The notes below the pieces were generated by a model, which was given only the letters and a program-made list of their open reading frames with translations, made no database searches and had not been told where the DNA came from. From positions 3,105,116-3,169,115 of the forward strand of contig JAVSMP010000001.1 of assembly GCA_032027145.1 (NCBI GenBank): a stretch of DNA of 64,000 bases. Reading direction: 5' to 3'. The DNA is from Ignavibacterium sp. GTDB taxonomy: Bacteria; Bacteroidota; Ignavibacteria; Ignavibacteriales; Ignavibacteriaceae. Below are positions 5,516-13,574 of the stretch, in pieces; the first letter of the stretch is position 1, and the number at the start of each line of letters is the position of its first letter. The position numbers and the translations under genes are program-made.

Positions 5516-5576
5516 AAAATATTACTTTTAAGAAAGCTTATTTATATCATAGTTGAAAACATTATTGGGAATAAGT

Positions 5577-7142
5577 ATGAACTCTGTAGAAAAATTTATC
5601 ACTTCAATCCAAGAAGGATATTCTTTTAAAGGTGATTCACTGACACTTGGTACTGCAATTTATGAAAAGGAAGCTCAGCAAAACCTTCTCGTAAAAGTTC
5701 CTCTTAACACAATTAATAGACACGGATTGATAGCAGGTGCAACTGGTACTGGTAAAACAAAAACAGTACAGGTTTTTGCAGAAGCATTGTCCGAAAAAAG
5801 TATCCCTGTTCTTTTAATGGATATTAAAGGTGACTTAAGCGGCATTGCAGCGGCAGGGGCTTCAAACCCAAAAATTGATGAGAGGCACTCAAAGATAGGT
5901 TTGCCTTTTATCCCAAAAGAATTTCCTGTTGAATTTTTGACTTTGTCAGATGAAAAAGGAACCCGCCTTAGAGCAACAGTTTCAGAGTTTGGTCCTATCC
6001 TTGTTTCCAAAATACTTGAACTGAATGATACACAAGCCGGACTTATCGCAGTTCTATTTAAATATTGTGATGATAATAATCTTCCTTTACTCGATCTGAA
6101 AGATCTGAAAAAGATTCTGCAATATGCTGCCGATGAAGGTAAACAAGATATTGCTAAAGACTATGGGGCAATTTCGCCGGCATCAATTGGAACCATATTA
6201 AGGAAAGTAGTAGAACTTGAACAACAGGGTGCTGAAAAATTCTTTGGAGAAAGATCATTTGAAGTTGAAGATCTTTTAAGGATTGATGAAAATGGTAATG
6301 GAGTAATTTCTGTTTTACGTTTAATTGATTTACAAGACCGTCCAAAATTATTTTCTACTTTTATGCTTTCGCTTCTGGCAGAAATTTATTCAACTTTTCC
6401 TGAACTTGGTGATAAGGCAGAGCCTAAACTGGTTATTGTTATTGATGAAGCCCATTTAATATTTAAAGAAGCAAGTAAAGCATTGCTTGATCAGATTGAA
6501 ACAATAATTAAACTTATAAGATCAAAAGGTGTAGGAATTTATTTTTGTACACAGAATCCAACCGATGTACCTCAGGCAGTTCTTAGCCAGCTTGGATTGA
6601 AAATACAGCATGCACTCAGAGCATTTACTGCACAAGATAGAAAGATGATAAAGTTAACATCTGAAAATTACCCGATATCAGAATTTTATAAAACTGATGA
6701 ATTACTCACTTCACTTGGTATTGGCGAGGCTGCTATAAGCACATTAAATGAGAAAGGCGTTCCAACACCGCTTGCTGCAACATTGCTTTGTGCACCAAGA
6801 TCAAGAATGGATATCTTATCACCTGAAGAACTTGATGCTAAAGTTAAGGCATCATTTCTTTATAAAAAGTATAGTGATGTTATAGACAGAGAAAGTGCTT
6901 ATGAAATCCTGAATAAGAAAATTAATGCAGCAAAGGAGTTTGAACTTAAAATTCCCGAAGCAACCAAATATCAGTACCCGCAGCCTACTCAAAGACAAAC
7001 AACTACTACACGCAGAACTGAAAAGAGTACTATGGATAAAGTTATAAACAGCTCTCTTTCCAAACAGGTTGGCAGAACTTTAGTCAGAGAAATAACCCGT
7101 GGTTTACTTGGTGTTCTTGGAGTCGGGGGAAGAAGAAGATAA
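5577..7142 (+). CDS. HerA-like P-loop ATPase (DUF853 type)
   Basis: A cytoplasmic ATPase of about 521 residues of the HerA/FtsK superfamily, DUF853 branch. Walker A is GATGTGKTKT (about residues 54-63). A family-typical LLMDIKGDLSGIAAAG block follows, and Walker B is LVIVIDEAHLIF (about residues 285-296). Another conserved block is GVGIYFCTQNPTDVP. The C-terminus is basic (GVGGRRR). I chose the ATG at 5577, which has GGGA seven bases upstream. The frame also opens at a TTG at 5553, which would add eight residues and is less likely. The family is predicted to translocate or remodel DNA, but its cellular role in bacteria is poorly defined. Its stop is immediately followed by the ATG of the M19 dipeptidase gene, so the two are probably translationally coupled. 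Confidence 0.88.
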   Translation: MNSVEKFITSIQEGYSFKGDSLTLGTAIYEKEAQQNLLVKVPLNTINRHGLIAGATGTGKTKTVQVFAEALSEKSIPVLLMDIKGDLSGIAAAGASNPKIDERHSKIGLPFIPKEFPVEFLTLSDEKGTRLRATVSEFGPILVSKILELNDTQAGLIAVLFKYCDDNNLPLLDLKDLKKILQYAADEGKQDIAKDYGAISPASIGTILRKVVELEQQGAEKFFGERSFEVEDLLRIDENGNGVISVLRLIDLQDRPKLFSTFMLSLLAEIYSTFPELGDKAEPKLVIVIDEAHLIFKEASKALLDQIETIIKLIRSKGVGIYFCTQNPTDVPQAVLSQLGLKIQHALRAFTAQDRKMIKLTSENYPISEFYKTDELLTSLGIGEAAISTLNEKGVPTPLAATLLCAPRSRMDILSPEELDAKVKASFLYKKYSDVIDRESAYEILNKKINAAKEFELKIPEATKYQYPQPTQRQTTTTRRTEKSTMDKVINSSLSKQVGRTLVREITRGLLGVLGVGGRRR

Positions 7143-8771
7143 ATGAGAGTTAAACTTCTGTTATTATTATTTGCTTTTTTAAATCTGCTGACTCTTGCAC
7201 AAACGATTACTATAACCGGTTATGTTAAAGATTTAAAAACCAATTCACCAATAGAAAATGCAAAGGTTCAGATTAAGGATTTGCAGAATGGAATAATAGA
7301 TTCTGTGTTTTCGGATATTGCCGGCAACTGGCAATATGATGTTATCGCTGTTTCTACTGAACCGATTACTTATCTGCCAAATGATTTCAAAGTTGAACAA
7401 AACTTCCCTAACCCATTTAATCCATCTACTAAAATTAATTTTTCGATACCATCAGAAGGACAGGTTACTATCAGTGTTCATAATATTCTTGGTGAAATGA
7501 TTAATCAAAAGAGTACTTACTTAACTGCCGGCGTTTATACAGTTGACTGGTACAGTAAAGGAAGCGCAGGAGTTTATTTATACACCATTTCTTTCGGTAA
7601 TAAATCATTAACCAAAAAGATGATTCAGCTTGATGGTGGTAGTGGGATTGGTCTTGGAGAAATTCATTCCGGAATTTCAAAAAACTATTCTGCAGCTAAC
7701 AAATCAGCAGTTGACCTTGAAATAGTGGTTACTAAGTTTAGCTATGCTGCTGATTCAATTTATGCTTCGGTTGTTGGCGGAGAAAATTTTGTCACTGAAC
7801 TGCAGACAATTCATTCAAAATATACTTTGATTGATCTTCACAACGATGTACTGGAAGTAATGATAAGCGATACAAGCTATCATCTGAAAGATCTTCATTC
7901 ATATAATCATACCGATATACCAAGGCTGCAAATTGGTGAAGTTGATATTCAATTTTTTTCGATTTGGGTAAATCCATCTGATTATCCTTATTATTTCGGA
8001 CCCGCTTTGGCAATGCGCGATCGTTTTTATTCTGAACTGTCTTCGAATACACAAACGATTGGGCAGGCTAACACAATTCAGGAAGCTTTAATACTTAACA
8101 ATCAGAATAAAATTGCAGGAGTTATCGGTGTTGAAGGCGGTCATCATATAGATAATAGTATTGACAATCTTATTGAGCTTTATAATTCAGGTATGAGATA
8201 TTTAACAATCACCTGGAATAACAGTACCAGTTGGGCTATCTCTGCAAATGACAGCAGAACTCTTACTCAAGGATTAAGTAATTTTGGAAAAGAAGTAATT
8301 CGTAAACTGGATTCGCTTGGAGTAATTATTGATGTTTCTCATACCGGAATAAAAACTATTCAGGATATTTTAACAATTACAACAAATCCTATAATTGCAT
8401 CACACAGCGGAGCGAGAAGTATTCACGATCACAGAAGAAATCTTTACGACTGGCAGATAGAGGATATTGCTAACACCGGCGGAGTAATCGGAGTGGTTTT
8501 CTATCCATATTTTCTTAATGGAAGTGCTAGTGCATCAATTGATGATGTAATTGCTCATATTGATCATATCGTAAATTTAGTAGGGACTGATTATGTTTCA
8601 CTCGGTTCTGATTTTGATGGAATAGAAGTAACTCCATTTGGTCTGGAAGACGTCAGTAAGTTTCCTCAGCTGACATTGGCATTATTACAACATGGTTATA
8701 CAGAACAGGAAGTTGCAAAATTCTTAGGTGGAAATTTTAAAAGAGTATTTGAACAAGTCTGCGGAAATTAG
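7143..8771 (+). CDS. Secreted M19 membrane-dipeptidase-like protein with an internal T9SS-type sorting domain
   Basis: A 542-residue exported protein: signal peptide (1-19), the start of a carboxypeptidase-regulatory-like domain (about 22-75), and a complete type-A sorting domain at about 80-163 (EQNFPNPFNPSTKINF ... GVYLYTISF ... KKMIQL). About 50 residues of beta domain follow, then a peptidase family M19 (renal/membrane dipeptidase) domain from about 226 to the end. Metal-site motifs are visible: HxD in DLHND (H233, D235), the glutamate in GVEGGHH, SHSGARS, and GSDFDG. The family cleaves dipeptides, often containing D-residues. The sorting domain is normally the extreme C-terminus, so its position here before the catalytic domain is odd and may make it structural rather than a secretion signal. 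The start directly abuts the stop of the ATPase gene. Dipeptidase assignment is strong; export route is inference. Confidence 0.88.
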   Translation: MRVKLLLLLFAFLNLLTLAQTITITGYVKDLKTNSPIENAKVQIKDLQNGIIDSVFSDIAGNWQYDVIAVSTEPITYLPNDFKVEQNFPNPFNPSTKINFSIPSEGQVTISVHNILGEMINQKSTYLTAGVYTVDWYSKGSAGVYLYTISFGNKSLTKKMIQLDGGSGIGLGEIHSGISKNYSAANKSAVDLEIVVTKFSYAADSIYASVVGGENFVTELQTIHSKYTLIDLHNDVLEVMISDTSYHLKDLHSYNHTDIPRLQIGEVDIQFFSIWVNPSDYPYYFGPALAMRDRFYSELSSNTQTIGQANTIQEALILNNQNKIAGVIGVEGGHHIDNSIDNLIELYNSGMRYLTITWNNSTSWAISANDSRTLTQGLSNFGKEVIRKLDSLGVIIDVSHTGIKTIQDILTITTNPIIASHSGARSIHDHRRNLYDWQIEDIANTGGVIGVVFYPYFLNGSASASIDDVIAHIDHIVNLVGTDYVSLGSDFDGIEVTPFGLEDVSKFPQLTLALLQHGYTEQEVAKFLGGNFKRVFEQVCGN

Positions 8772-9038: not shown

Positions 9039-10052
9039 TCAGAAGGTAATCCCCAAAGAAAAATAATGCACTTCACTCAGCCTGCCAAAATCCTGATAAG
9101 CATAATCAAGTTTAACTTTAACAAGATCAACTATCCGATAGTTTACACCTATACCAGCAGTTAAACCTTTTTCAGAATCTTTTTCAAATAAAGAATTATA
9201 TCCAACTCTTAAGAATACTGTTTCGTTCCATGCATATTCCAAACCTGAGTTAATATACTCAGTATGATCATTTGGATGAATTGCATCAACTGAGGTTGTT
9301 AATCTTGCTGATTGATCTTTAATAACATCAGCAGAAAGACCAAACCTGAACATAAGTGGTAAATCAAACTTATCCAATTCAAGATTAGCATTAATAAGAT
9401 TTCCTCCGCCGGCACCAGCAGGAAAATTCTGTGTTACATCTCTGCCTTCCATCTGCATCTTTGTACCAAAATTTGAGATACTTGCAGCAATGCGTAATTC
9501 ATTTAATACAGGAATTCTGTATAGTGTGCCAACATCAATGGCAAATCCGGTTGCACTCATATGCCAAATAGATTCGTTTATATACTTAGCATTAAATCCA
9601 ATTGAAAAGTTTTCTGTAAGAAAACGCGAATAATTTAATCCAACTATTATTGCACCATAACCAAAATATTCACCTGTACCATCTGGCTTTTCAACAGTTC
9701 GTACTGGCATATCATCAACAGATAAAACTGAAACAAAAGCACCAACAGTTCCAAATCCGCTTAGATTACTTGCAATAGCGGCGTAATCATGTTTAATGTC
9801 TAAATATAAAGTAGAATGATTAAAGAACACTTCATTGGATTCAATACTTGCTGATCCGCTTGGATTCCAATAAAGTGAAGTAATATCATTAGCAACTGCA
9901 GTAAATGCCCCTCCCATTCCAATAGCGCGAGGACCAACATTTATTTTTAGAACCTGTGCAGCCGTAGTTCCAGTTTTAAGAGTTTGAGCATCTACTGAAA
10001 ATAACAGAGCAGATGCAGATATTAAAAGAATAATATAGTTTATTGTTTTCAT
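9039..10052 (-). CDS. PorV/PorQ-family outer-membrane protein
   Basis: A 337-residue protein with a signal peptide (cleavage near residue 22, DAQ). It has the hallmark start of PorV/PorQ (UPF0164-like) barrels: VGPRAIGMGGAFTAVANDIT followed by YWNPSG. The rest is a series of amphipathic strands ending in HYFSLGITF, a classical outer-membrane terminal strand. PorV is a T9SS outer-membrane factor that shuttles cargo, but the family is broad and this copy may be a general barrel. An AGGAG site lies nine bases before the ATG. It is the last gene of a three-gene operon after the giant secreted protein (23-base gap) and is followed by a strong terminator. A paralogue lies at 32775-33791 in an equivalent context. 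Confidence 0.87.
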   Translation of the reverse strand: MKTINYIILLISASALLFSVDAQTLKTGTTAAQVLKINVGPRAIGMGGAFTAVANDITSLYWNPSGSASIESNEVFFNHSTLYLDIKHDYAAIASNLSGFGTVGAFVSVLSVDDMPVRTVEKPDGTGEYFGYGAIIVGLNYSRFLTENFSIGFNAKYINESIWHMSATGFAIDVGTLYRIPVLNELRIAASISNFGTKMQMEGRDVTQNFPAGAGGGNLINANLELDKFDLPLMFRFGLSADVIKDQSARLTTSVDAIHPNDHTEYINSGLEYAWNETVFLRVGYNSLFEKDSEKGLTAGIGVNYRIVDLVKVKLDYAYQDFGRLSEVHYFSLGITF

Positions 10053-10075: not shown

Positions 10076-13000
10076 TTACTTTACTATTGCAAACTTGATC
10101 AGTTTTTCACCAACACCGGGTGCATCTATGTGAGCAATGTATAAACCATACGAAACACTAAAACCATCCCTGTTAAGAAGATTCCAGAATTCTCTTCCAT
10201 TATCCATTCCGGATTGATGTTCGATAGTTGTAACTAACTCTCCGCTCAGAGTAAATATTCTTATAGTGCAATCCATCGGAAGATTCTCAAAGTATATTCT
10301 CCGTTCTCCGCGGTTTTGACCTGGCAGTTTGTTTGTCGGTTCAATATCATTCGTTCCTACATAAGGATTCGGAACTACATAAATGTTATCTAATTTAGAA
10401 ACAGCTTCTTGATTATTTATAAATCCTGCTTCAGTATGTAAAGTGTACTCATCTTCATTTGTAAATGGTCTCTGAGTATAAATCAAAAGCGTATAACCAG
10501 TACCTGGTATTGAGGAATCTGTGGCTGTAACTTTTGTAAGTGTTACACCCCAGGTTAAAGTATCAGTAAGTGTACCTTGTGATTCAGGTGCAAAAAAGAT
10601 AATCTCATCACCTCTGGTATAAGCTGAATCATTTTTCACTTTTTCATTCAGCAGTGTCATTATAGGTTTAGAAATACCGGTAGATATCTCTTCCACTTTG
10701 TAGTTTACGGGAATGTCTATCATCCGTCCGCTAATAACCTTTCTTGCAGTAGAAATATTCTGATCAGAAAAAGTGAGTATATAATCACCGGGATATTTTT
10801 TCTTTCTGTTACCTATTGAGGCAATATTAATTGTATATGGTATAGTGATAGATTCATTTGTCCATTTTGTTTTATCATTATCAATCGCCAATAAGGGATA
10901 ATCCTGCATCTTAAGTTTAATACCATCAAATACGATATTATCATCTTCGTTATTAAAAAATTGGCTTTGATAAATCGAATAATTCTTATATGTAATGCTG
11001 TACTGACTGTTATCGGGCATAGAGCTGTTATTAGTTCTTTTAATACTACCCTTAGCATAATTGATTTCATAATCAATAACATTTTGATAAATAGTTCCAT
11101 CCATTCCTTTTACAACAAGATTATTATCATCAATTATATACTGATATTTAAGATTAGTGTTTTTGCTACCATACAAATAAAAAGTTTCGGTGTTTATTCT
11201 GCTGCTAACAACATTATAATTTTTACCGGCAACTTTAGCAGAATCACCTAAATTTAATGAGTCCTGAAACGAAATAGTATAATCAGTAGTTATCATTTTC
11301 AGGTCATCAAGAATATCTAAACTTATTATTCCGTTTGAAAATCCTTTTGTATGAACAAGATTATTATTTGTGATTTCCGGGGCATTATAACCGCTTGCTC
11401 TTGGTCCTGGTATTACTGATACAGTATTATAATCAAAAATCAGATTACCGGTAATAGGATCCAAAGAAATCTTTTTGGTCGTTTCAGTTGGCGGTATTCC
11501 GATACTATCACTGCCATGATCGTAAGCCACTAAGCCATAATAATAAGTTTGCCCATTAATTACACCATTTGAATCAACATAAGTATGTCTTAATCCTGTA
11601 TCATCACCTAAATAATAATGCACACCTCTGCCTTGAAACGGAACCGGGTGATAACCTTTTATATCATTTCTTAAATCAAATTTGGCATCAACACCATTAA
11701 TACTTTTTAATGGCTCGTATAAAAAGCTGGAACCTCTTCCATCAGATATAGTTTGAATATCGCCAAAGTCAGGACGAGTACTTCGGTAAATTACGTAGCC
11801 TTCAAAATCTTTTCCGGTTATCGGGTCTATACTTTCTTCAGAGCCGGTGTCCCAATACAAAGTAACTTTTCTATCATCTGGTACAGCGGTTAATTTTGGC
11901 AATGATGGCGGTCGGAAGAAACGATAGTTTTTGTTATAGATATCTTGTACTGTTTCGGCTGTAGTTAAAAGGTCATTTAAGTCTTCACCAAAAAGAAACG
12001 CCATAGAGATTCTTTTCGATTCCCCTTTTTTAAGTGAAGTGTATCCTGAACCAAATGTAAAAACAATATCAGCATCATTAGTAATCTGATTAAAGCTTCC
12101 GGGGATATTTCTGTTCCATATTACATCATCATTACCCATTTTCAGGTCTGTATTCCATGTTGAACTTGCAAAGCTCGTTAATCCTATCTGATCAGATTCA
12201 TCAAGATCTGTATATTCAAAATTAGGTTCACCTGGTGCTAATGGATCCGGTCTTCCATCAGGTAATCTTCTGCCGGCAGTCGGGATACCATCACCTTCGC
12301 CTTCATCTCCGGTATTGGGAATGCCATCAACACCAACATCATCTGTTTCAGGATTCCAGTCTCCATCATTATCAATTCCATCATCCTGTCTCTCGTCAGT
12401 CATTCCATCACCATCGTTGTCAATTCCATCCTCAGGGTTACCAGGACTTTCCAAAAACTTGCAGCCTAAATAATAAACAGGCAGTCCATTCAAACCTGTA
12501 GGAGTAGCCGGATTATCAAAAAAGTAAACCATACTTCTTGCATAGACCGGTATATGCTGGACATCAGAGCCGTAGGGTTTTATAAAAGCACCCCAGTCAT
12601 CTTTGTTATCTGCCTGCCCGCCAATATCCGGATCACCATATATACCAAATAAAACAGAATCCAAATCCTTATCACTAACATTGGTAATTGTCCAGACAAA
12701 GAATAAGGCATTTGCAGCTAACGAATTACTCCATTGAAAAGCTCTTGCATCAACTGATACACCAAGCCCTCCTTTTGTAGGATCATTTAAAAACGGATGA
12801 TATGTGTAGGCGAGAGTATCTCTTATAAACTCAAGATTATCTCTATCGTCCATTGCCCAATAAACTTCAAGATCAGCATTATTTTCACCAACTGTTAAAT
12901 AGCCAGGCCAAACATATTCACCGAGTGCTTCATGATACCATTCTCTGGGCCAACTGTCAGGTTTTCCATCGTGATCTGAATCGAAAGCAGGATTTGAAGC

Positions 13001-13555
13001 CATAAACTCCTGTTCAGGATCGGCATAACCTGGCAATGGCTGAAATGTCCACTTAAATCCGGTAACAGGATCTTCATCTCTTAGCCCTGCATAACTATAA
13101 TCATACATACCATCAGAAATAATTTTTAGCCGAACATTCGGATTCTGATCACTCGGAACCGAAGCCCCAACAAAAGGAGAGAATTGGAAAATGTAAGGAA
13201 CATCTCTCCAAACCATATCAAGTTTTTCTCTCAGACCTTCACCGCCTAATCCGGCACCAATGCCGCCATAATTCCAGACCTGGCAAAGAACATTGTTCCC
13301 ATTCATTATATAATACTTTCTATCTTCTTCGCCGGTTATTTTTCTTAGACTCCTGTTATCAGCATTTTTTGAAAGCTGTGATTCGTTAGTACGGCTTCGT
13401 GGATATTTTTCCATTAGTGTATTCAAATAATCTTTCACTGCCTGATGTTCAGCTTGTCTTTGCTCAGGTGTCTTTTGTGAAAAAGTTATTGTACTAAATA
13501 AGATGAACAAGAGAAATAATTTAATCATTTGATAGTAGCCTATATTTTTCAGCAT
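10076..13555 (-). CDS. Giant secreted protein with Asp-rich repeats, FnIII-like domain and C-terminal FlgD/T9SS-like domain
   Basis: About 1159 residues with a signal sequence (hydrophobic segment LFLLFILFSTITF). The frame opens at 13567, but the ATG at 13555 is preferred because GGAG lies seven bases upstream, inside the longer version. From about residue 375 to 438 there is an Asp/Gly-rich stretch with DGIDNDGDGMTD and DGIDNDGDW units resembling thrombospondin type-3 calcium-binding repeats. A fibronectin-III-like domain follows near 547-650 (VTLYWD, FEGYVIYRSTRPDFGD). The C-terminal domain (about 1055-1159) begins VVPNPYVG and ends LIKFAIVK, a FlgD-Ig-like variant distinct from the NFPNPFNP type. 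The middle gene of the TonB-receptor/PorV operon, it may be a surface ligand-binding or matrix protein; substrate unknown. Confidence 0.8.
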   Translation of the reverse strand: MLKNIGYYQMIKLFLLFILFSTITFSQKTPEQRQAEHQAVKDYLNTLMEKYPRSRTNESQLSKNADNRSLRKITGEEDRKYYIMNGNNVLCQVWNYGGIGAGLGGEGLREKLDMVWRDVPYIFQFSPFVGASVPSDQNPNVRLKIISDGMYDYSYAGLRDEDPVTGFKWTFQPLPGYADPEQEFMASNPAFDSDHDGKPDSWPREWYHEALGEYVWPGYLTVGENNADLEVYWAMDDRDNLEFIRDTLAYTYHPFLNDPTKGGLGVSVDARAFQWSNSLAANALFFVWTITNVSDKDLDSVLFGIYGDPDIGGQADNKDDWGAFIKPYGSDVQHIPVYARSMVYFFDNPATPTGLNGLPVYYLGCKFLESPGNPEDGIDNDGDGMTDERQDDGIDNDGDWNPETDDVGVDGIPNTGDEGEGDGIPTAGRRLPDGRPDPLAPGEPNFEYTDLDESDQIGLTSFASSTWNTDLKMGNDDVIWNRNIPGSFNQITNDADIVFTFGSGYTSLKKGESKRISMAFLFGEDLNDLLTTAETVQDIYNKNYRFFRPPSLPKLTAVPDDRKVTLYWDTGSEESIDPITGKDFEGYVIYRSTRPDFGDIQTISDGRGSSFLYEPLKSINGVDAKFDLRNDIKGYHPVPFQGRGVHYYLGDDTGLRHTYVDSNGVINGQTYYYGLVAYDHGSDSIGIPPTETTKKISLDPITGNLIFDYNTVSVIPGPRASGYNAPEITNNNLVHTKGFSNGIISLDILDDLKMITTDYTISFQDSLNLGDSAKVAGKNYNVVSSRINTETFYLYGSKNTNLKYQYIIDDNNLVVKGMDGTIYQNVIDYEINYAKGSIKRTNNSSMPDNSQYSITYKNYSIYQSQFFNNEDDNIVFDGIKLKMQDYPLLAIDNDKTKWTNESITIPYTINIASIGNRKKKYPGDYILTFSDQNISTARKVISGRMIDIPVNYKVEEISTGISKPIMTLLNEKVKNDSAYTRGDEIIFFAPESQGTLTDTLTWGVTLTKVTATDSSIPGTGYTLLIYTQRPFTNEDEYTLHTEAGFINNQEAVSKLDNIYVVPNPYVGTNDIEPTNKLPGQNRGERRIYFENLPMDCTIRIFTLSGELVTTIEHQSGMDNGREFWNLLNRDGFSVSYGLYIAHIDAPGVGEKLIKFAIVK

Positions 13556-13574
13556 TTTAGTCTCCATTAAAAAA

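Follow-up and report, generated by a model that had tools for sequence, protein, structure and literature searches.

Gene, domain order, and neighboring genes

The window analyzed here is a stretch of 64,000 nucleotides from Ignavibacterium sp., taken from a genome that consists of one contig of 3,665,746 bases. An uninterrupted and intact open reading frame at positions 7143 to 8771 of the forward strand encodes a protein of 542 amino acids, in which a signal peptide is followed by half of a regulatory domain, a C-terminal sorting domain (CTD) of the T9SS, the other half of the regulatory domain, and an M19 dipeptidase. The putative Sec/SPI-type signal peptide (7143 to 7199, residues 1 to 19, ...LTLA|Q20) was assigned by inspection; it forms a helix at residues 2 to 16 in the predicted model, is also present in orthologs, and carries no lipobox cysteine as judged from its sequence. 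The first half of the CarboxypepD_reg/transthyretin-like domain (7200 to 7349, residues 20 to 69) covers PF13620 positions 1 to 43 and has four strands in the predicted model, at residues 19 to 30, 41 to 46, 52 to 56, and 62 to 70. Linker 1 (7350 to 7379, residues 70 to 79, pLDDT of about 43) joins it to the internal type A T9SS CTD (7380 to 7634, residues 80 to 164, NFPNPFNPST ... KKMIQLD), with strands predicted at residues 83 to 85, 95 to 102, 106 to 114, 119 to 127, 130 to 137, 143 to 151, and 154 to 162. Linker 2 follows (7635 to 7703, residues 165 to 187, GGSGIGLGEIHSGISKNYSAANK), and the pLDDT drops to 47 at residues 181 to 190, a segment reaching into this linker. The second half of the regulatory domain (7704 to 7808, residues 188 to 222) has three predicted strands (190 to 197, 204 to 210, and 215 to 222), and the M19 (renal-dipeptidase family) catalytic domain occupies the remainder up to and including the stop codon (7809 to 8771, residues 223 to 542). 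All of these features lie on the forward strand. A preliminary description of this DNA had placed the CTD at residues 80 to 163 and the second regulatory half at about 185 to 220, ahead of a 315-residue dipeptidase, and these limits proved accurate to within a few residues.

The ATG of the dipeptidase gene directly abuts the TAA of a gene for a HerA-like ATPase (5553 to 7142), the junction lying at window positions 7140 to 7143. A HerA-like ATPase gene also nearly abuts the dipeptidase gene at two other loci (L042 and L043) and is found about 1 kb upstream of it at two more (L045 and L056), and it is possible that a DNA-translocase-like ATPase and a secreted dipeptidase are co-transcribed. The convergent neighbor, at 9039 to 10052 on the reverse strand, encodes an outer-membrane protein of the PorV/PorQ family (NF033709, 213.8 bits, cut-off 90), and a similar neighbor was present in 10 of 20 orthologous loci examined with a 4-kb flank; the convergent pair recurs in this genus and in some relatives. 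Adjoining the PorV/PorQ-family gene, positions 10076 to 13567 encode a protein of 1,163 amino acids with a CTD-like end (VVPNPYVG...KFAIVK) to which no NCBIfam model matched.

The catalytic domain matched Peptidase_M19 (PF01244) with 329 bits at residues 223 to 538, and its predicted fold matched 17 entries of solved M19 dipeptidases with Z scores from 36.1 to 39.6, human renal dipeptidase (1itq) among them with a Z score of 38.9. Residues H233, D235, E331, H400, H421, R432, and D490 align to H20, D22, E125, H198, H219, R230, and D288 of DPEP1, and all seven M19 active-site residues were invariant in 57 of 57 orthologs. Because of this invariance and the match to the M19 fold, the product, as read from its sequence, is very probably an active zinc dipeptidase. 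The whole catalytic fold and the seven residues are those of the M19 family (PF01244; human DPEP1, 1itq; GliJ; Sco3058), whereas the N-terminal region of about 220 residues, made up of signal peptide, regulatory domain, and CTD, was missing from the plain bacterial M19 proteins that were sampled.

An internal sorting domain nested in a regulatory domain

A C-terminal CTD is regarded as a hallmark of T9SS cargo, and secretomes are predicted from it. The claim that this protein has a complete type A sorting domain near its N terminus was borne out by two profiles, both of which scored above their cut-offs: TIGR04183 of NCBIfam gave 42.3 bits (cut-off 23), and PF18962, Por_Secre_tail, of Pfam gave 32.7 bits (cut-off 27), with the CTD match at residues 88 to 161. 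Genome-wide there were 150 matches to TIGR04183, and the DNA around all of them was inspected. A stop codon followed within 23 residues in 149 cases (146 clean terminal CTDs and 3 with a stop inside), and the short tails behind the terminal matches represented either truncation of the HMM match or the real KKMxLLK end. The CTD of the dipeptidase was the sole internal one in the genome, with 380 amino acids of coding sequence after it. It does not occupy the C-terminal location usual for a type A CTD, and the dipeptidase, with its CTD in an internal position, lacks the combination of a Sec signal peptide and a C-terminal CTD that marks T9SS cargo. The domain resembles known type A CTDs (TIGR04183, PF18962) in its PNPF motif, conserved glycines, K159, and seven predicted strands, and it differs from them in being internal, nested, and 380 residues away from the C terminus, in ending with QLDGG where type A CTDs have LLK/R, and in class-specific surface substitutions.

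The predicted strands of the CTD fall within residues 83 to 162, and their number, seven, is that expected for a type A CTD. Foldseek with the N-terminal model returned only low-scoring Ig-like and pilin matches, and an aligned fold search with the model of residues 20 to 226 had no solved CTD among the matches listed, which were filled by the regulatory domain. When a profile of three internal CTDs was compared with PDB sequences, the matches were weak (the CTD chain 8glj_D appeared at an E value of 0.075), and phmmer with the N-terminal region of one ortholog produced a single match at chance level. The missing match to a solved CTD is not evidence against a CTD fold; since the fold search gave no solved CTD, the proposed seven-strand fold of the dipeptidase CTD is based on the sequence profiles and the strand count.

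The preliminary description had also proposed a carboxypeptidase-regulatory-like domain that is broken by the CTD and continues at about residues 185 to 220, and profile searches with excised sequences and the predicted fold both agreed with this. In the intact protein, PF13620 matched with positions 1 to 43 of 82 at residues 23 to 66 (25.4 bits). After in silico excision of the CTD and linkers, the match grew to positions 1 to 63 and 30.4 bits, compared with a cut-off of 32.3. The same excision raised the score of one ortholog (L052) from 17.8 to 29.8 bits, covering positions 1 to 78, and that of another (L033) from 23.4 bits for the N-terminal half alone to 36.7 bits over positions 1 to 82; two orthologs exceeded the cut-off of 32.3 with the CTD excised (36.8 and 36.7 bits). 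AlphaFold2 placed four strands before the CTD and three after it, both in the model of the complete protein (pLDDT of 81.8) and in that of residues 20 to 226 (pLDDT of 77.6). Carboxypeptidase D has a transthyretin-like domain (5aq0_B), 79 of whose 82 residues aligned with the latter model (rmsd of 1.4 Å, Z score of 12.5). This alignment spans model range 3 to 205 and both regulatory halves, so that about 120 model residues constitute an insert, and in the models a transthyretin-like fold is built from both halves. Taken together, the halves have in the predicted model the seven-strand fold of transthyretin-like/CarboxypepD_reg domains (PF13620; 5aq0, 1qmu), split here by a whole, putatively Ig-like domain between strands 4 and 5.

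Orthologs, origin, and selection

The search for homologs with the same domain order in Ignavibacteria, which the preliminary description had suggested, covered relatives, another collection of genomes, and 391 class genomes, and it yielded 57 distinct CTD-containing M19 sequences from independent assemblies. These share the order of regulatory half, CTD, regulatory half, and M19 domain, a few being truncated or having uncertain starts, and the proteins are about 490 to 625 amino acids long as extracted. Within the sampled class genomes, the architecture occurs in about 47, which belong to eight families (f1, f2, f3, f5, f11, f13, f14, and f19); it is thus spread over at least eight families of Ignavibacteria. 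Another single-contig genome (G002) has the same order with an M19 domain 91% identical to that of the dipeptidase. For the next-best M19 proteins in the class sample, identity was for the most part about 40% or lower; the ones that were inspected were plain enzymes of about 390 to 430 amino acids without the N-terminal region. In a maximum-likelihood phylogeny of M19 domains, a branch with 99/99 support separated all 57 sequences from the 12 plain M19 proteins sampled. Because of this branch, a single origin followed mainly by vertical descent and loss fits the distribution. The ratio dN/dS for the CTD was about 0.09 to 0.11 between close relatives, similar to that of the catalytic domain; pairwise values were saturated for distant pairs, and close pairs alone were used. 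The architecture probably had a single origin that predates the radiation of the Ignavibacteria families now carrying it, and purifying selection has maintained it.

These results also decide between some of the explanations raised earlier. An assembly error or missed frameshift near position 7640, which would have joined a CTD-tailed protein to a dipeptidase, was ruled out by the same order in the 57 sequences, and its probability is negligible: the frame is open, the 57 orthologs have the same junctions, and the dN/dS of the CTD is near 0.1 between close relatives. A recent fusion of two secreted proteins was likewise ruled out, by the one old clade that is conserved across the class. The nested architecture is genuine, of old origin, and conserved.

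Among the 57 orthologs, mean pairwise identity was 51% for the CTD, 32% and 27% for the two regulatory halves, 24% for residues 70 to 82, and 25% for linker 2. The higher identity of the CTD than of the two halves of its host domain argues that the CTD does something specific. When the internal CTD and the terminal CTD of one control cargo were compared within the same genomes, the internal domain showed the lower conservation in 62 of 66 pairs (means of 0.56 and 0.63, respectively), the pairs not being independent. In two control cargo families, identity was about 60% between terminal CTDs, including cases in which it was about 40% between the passengers. Conservation of the internal CTD is by itself no argument for a retained role in the T9SS because fold motifs explain much of it.

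Internal CTDs were also sought in other proteins. When 395 genomes of the phylum were searched with a profile built from the CTD end and second regulatory half, the dipeptidases and a few other proteins were found. A KKM-LDG DNA pattern occurred in 42 of the 391 class genomes, compared with 1 for a reversed control pattern, and by position nearly all of its matches fell in dipeptidases. Two of the matches (G221:C153 and G058:C44) lay in proteins with an internal CTD and without M19, two at contig ends (G112:C300 and G247:C34) were read as truncated relatives, and a further protein (G221:C30) was found by the profile and missed by the pattern. In total, three non-M19 proteins in two genomes (G221 and G058) possess an internal CTD that likewise ends in LDG, and A142, D164, and G165 are common to their CTDs and the M19 set. 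The two G221 proteins (758 and 749 amino acids), encoded at C30 (L248) and C153 (L249), have a signal-peptide-like start, a regulatory-like stretch, a CTD ending in KKMILLDGG or KKMIQLDGS, and several hundred residues without M19. The G058:C44 protein (L250) has an internal CTD that ends in KKMVLLDGN and is followed by about 260 residues; its regulatory half lies just upstream in a different frame, owing either to a true frameshift of the gene or to an error in sequencing.

Remodeled end and surface of the internal CTD and its possible roles

The 57 internal CTDs were set against the 146 clean terminal CTDs that this genome encodes. The internal domains keep the fold motifs PNPF, G117, G130, G143, and Y147, and K159 was present in all 57, compared with 139 of the 146 terminal CTDs; we take this residue to be the counterpart of the near-invariant lysine described for CTDs (PMC10994853). 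The C-terminal end was changed from KKM[IL]LLK/R in terminal CTDs to KKM[IV]QLDGG in internal ones. Among the latter, Q162 and D164 each occurred in 53 of 57 and G165 in 51 of 57, while 143 of the 146 terminal CTDs ended in K/R, 1 had D there, and none had Q at position −3; the CTD of the dipeptidase does not have the KKMxLLK/R-stop ending of the lineage. Other positions also differed: L123 (130 of 146 terminal CTDs) was replaced by K/R (49 of 57 internal CTDs), S142 (135 of 146) by A (53 of 57), K127 by L (53 of 57), A121 by D, F154 (105 of 146) by polar or charged residues, and Y/F113 by H in most internal CTDs.

Published work on the T9SS bears on how these changes can be read. Contacts in substrate-bound translocon structures are predominantly hydrophobic, and the conserved CTD motifs are described as determining the fold, with the exception of a single near-invariant lysine, which touches PorV in known complexes; known cargo leaves the pore CTD first and carries its passenger N-terminal to the CTD (PMC10994853). 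Secretion was blocked when the last six residues of PorU were replaced or two were removed from RgpB, and it was not stopped by histidine tags behind the CTDs of PorU, PorZ, and PPAD (PMC11285876), so that a free C terminus is not strictly needed. The CTDs of PorU and PorZ are uncleaved and stay on the mature protein (PMC11285876); unlike the internal CTD of the dipeptidase, they are C-terminal and work in export. Exchange of CTDs between distant species may fail (PMC11285876). A literature search for CTDs in other than C-terminal positions found none reported in the papers covered, an absence that is no proof. The genome encodes SprA (1016 bits) and PorU (935 bits), and SprA was found in 388 of the 391 class genomes; because it is practically universal in the class, its presence or absence is uninformative with regard to the CTD.

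We consider it reasonably probable that the internal CTD is an exapted export tag, now a nested domain in a Sec-exported dipeptidase. The type A CTD is inserted into a loop of the transthyretin-like domain ahead of the M19 enzyme, and in this reading it would still fold as a seven-stranded Ig-like sandwich. Its recognition end and part of its surface would have been rewritten, with K/R replaced by D-G, the leucine two residues before it by Gln, and other hydrophobic positions by charged or polar residues. Such a CTD has probably lost its function as a T9SS export tag and probably acts instead as a structural or interaction module that projects from the regulatory domain; it might, for example, keep the dipeptidase in place, orient it, or dock it, either in the periplasm or at the outer membrane. 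Dipeptides, derived for example from peptidoglycan or protein, would be cut by the enzyme outside the inner membrane. Exaptation fits better than a working signal because the fold is kept while the C-terminal end and several hydrophobic positions are rewritten, and, of the three explanations offered in the preliminary description, the structural Ig-like module is better supported than the internal signal because the recognition end is remodeled in a conserved way; the third, a recent fusion or artefact, did not stand. Also in favor of exaptation are the lower conservation of the internal CTD in 62 of the 66 same-genome pairs and the rarity of the KKM-LDG signature (42 of 391 genomes). Several observations count against exaptation, namely, the stricter retention of K159 than in terminal CTDs, conservation of the CTD above that of its host domain and beyond what a passive spacer needs, the PorV/PorQ-family gene adjoining in part of the family, and the histidine tags tolerated behind the CTDs of PorU, PorZ, and PPAD.

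The same observations favor the main rival, a reading that we regard as somewhat unlikely, in which the internal CTD is a working T9SS signal: projecting from the regulatory domain as a knob that folds on its own, the CTD would be bound by PorV in the SprA pore and would lead to export of the whole protein through the outer membrane, with the dipeptidase following as the passenger. The protein would either stay intact or be nicked by PorU in linker 1. The kept K159 and the tolerated C-terminal extensions (PMC11285876) leave room for it, and the fold motifs retained in all 57 orthologs and the encoded T9SS core of SprA and PorU are also in its favor. However, the terminal K/R and the hydrophobic residue at −3 have been lost in a conserved way, L123, F154, and L162 have turned polar or charged, and the last CTD residues matter in PorU and RgpB (PMC11285876). 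In addition, 149 of the 150 CTD matches in the genome are terminal, and a folded enzyme of 320 residues lies on the C-terminal side of the CTD, while the passengers of known cargo are N-terminal (PMC10994853). It is unlikely that the T9SS accepts a near-N-terminal signal domain provided that it forms a free knob on a host domain, with the CTD still being the export signal. If that were so and PorU cut linker 1, the nicked strands of the transthyretin-like domain would hold the enzyme noncovalently to an anchored N-terminal piece. It is quite improbable that the signal peptide, split regulatory domain, and CTD form a mobile N-terminal cassette placed before different secreted proteins, to which it would confer a common location or partner with or without the T9SS. 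The two G221 proteins and the G058 protein, with their internal CTD, no M19, and the shared A142, D164, and G165, are consistent with such a cassette, but they come from two genomes so far, their second regulatory half has no profile match, and the shared residues could be convergent. A mobile cassette is compatible with both exaptation and an internal signal and so is not exclusive of either.

A match to Por_Secre_tail is by itself no proof of T9SS secretion, and here the matched domain is internal, nested, conserved across the class, and marked by a sequence signature of its own. The internal CTDs provide a natural experiment on which residues of a CTD act as a signal and which merely fold, and they bear on whether the T9SS signal must be terminal.

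Some other CTD sequences were observed in the course of the searches. Four tandem genes at G000:C1:2531944-2541528 (L125) encode proteins of about 676 to 752 amino acids with identical CTD sequences, either because the genes were duplicated locally in the recent past or because gene conversion is ongoing. In-frame stops interrupt CTD-like stretches at G000:C1:387354-393163 (L078) and G000:C1:1220187; these stretches apparently represent decayed cargo genes, two of which adjoin intact ones.
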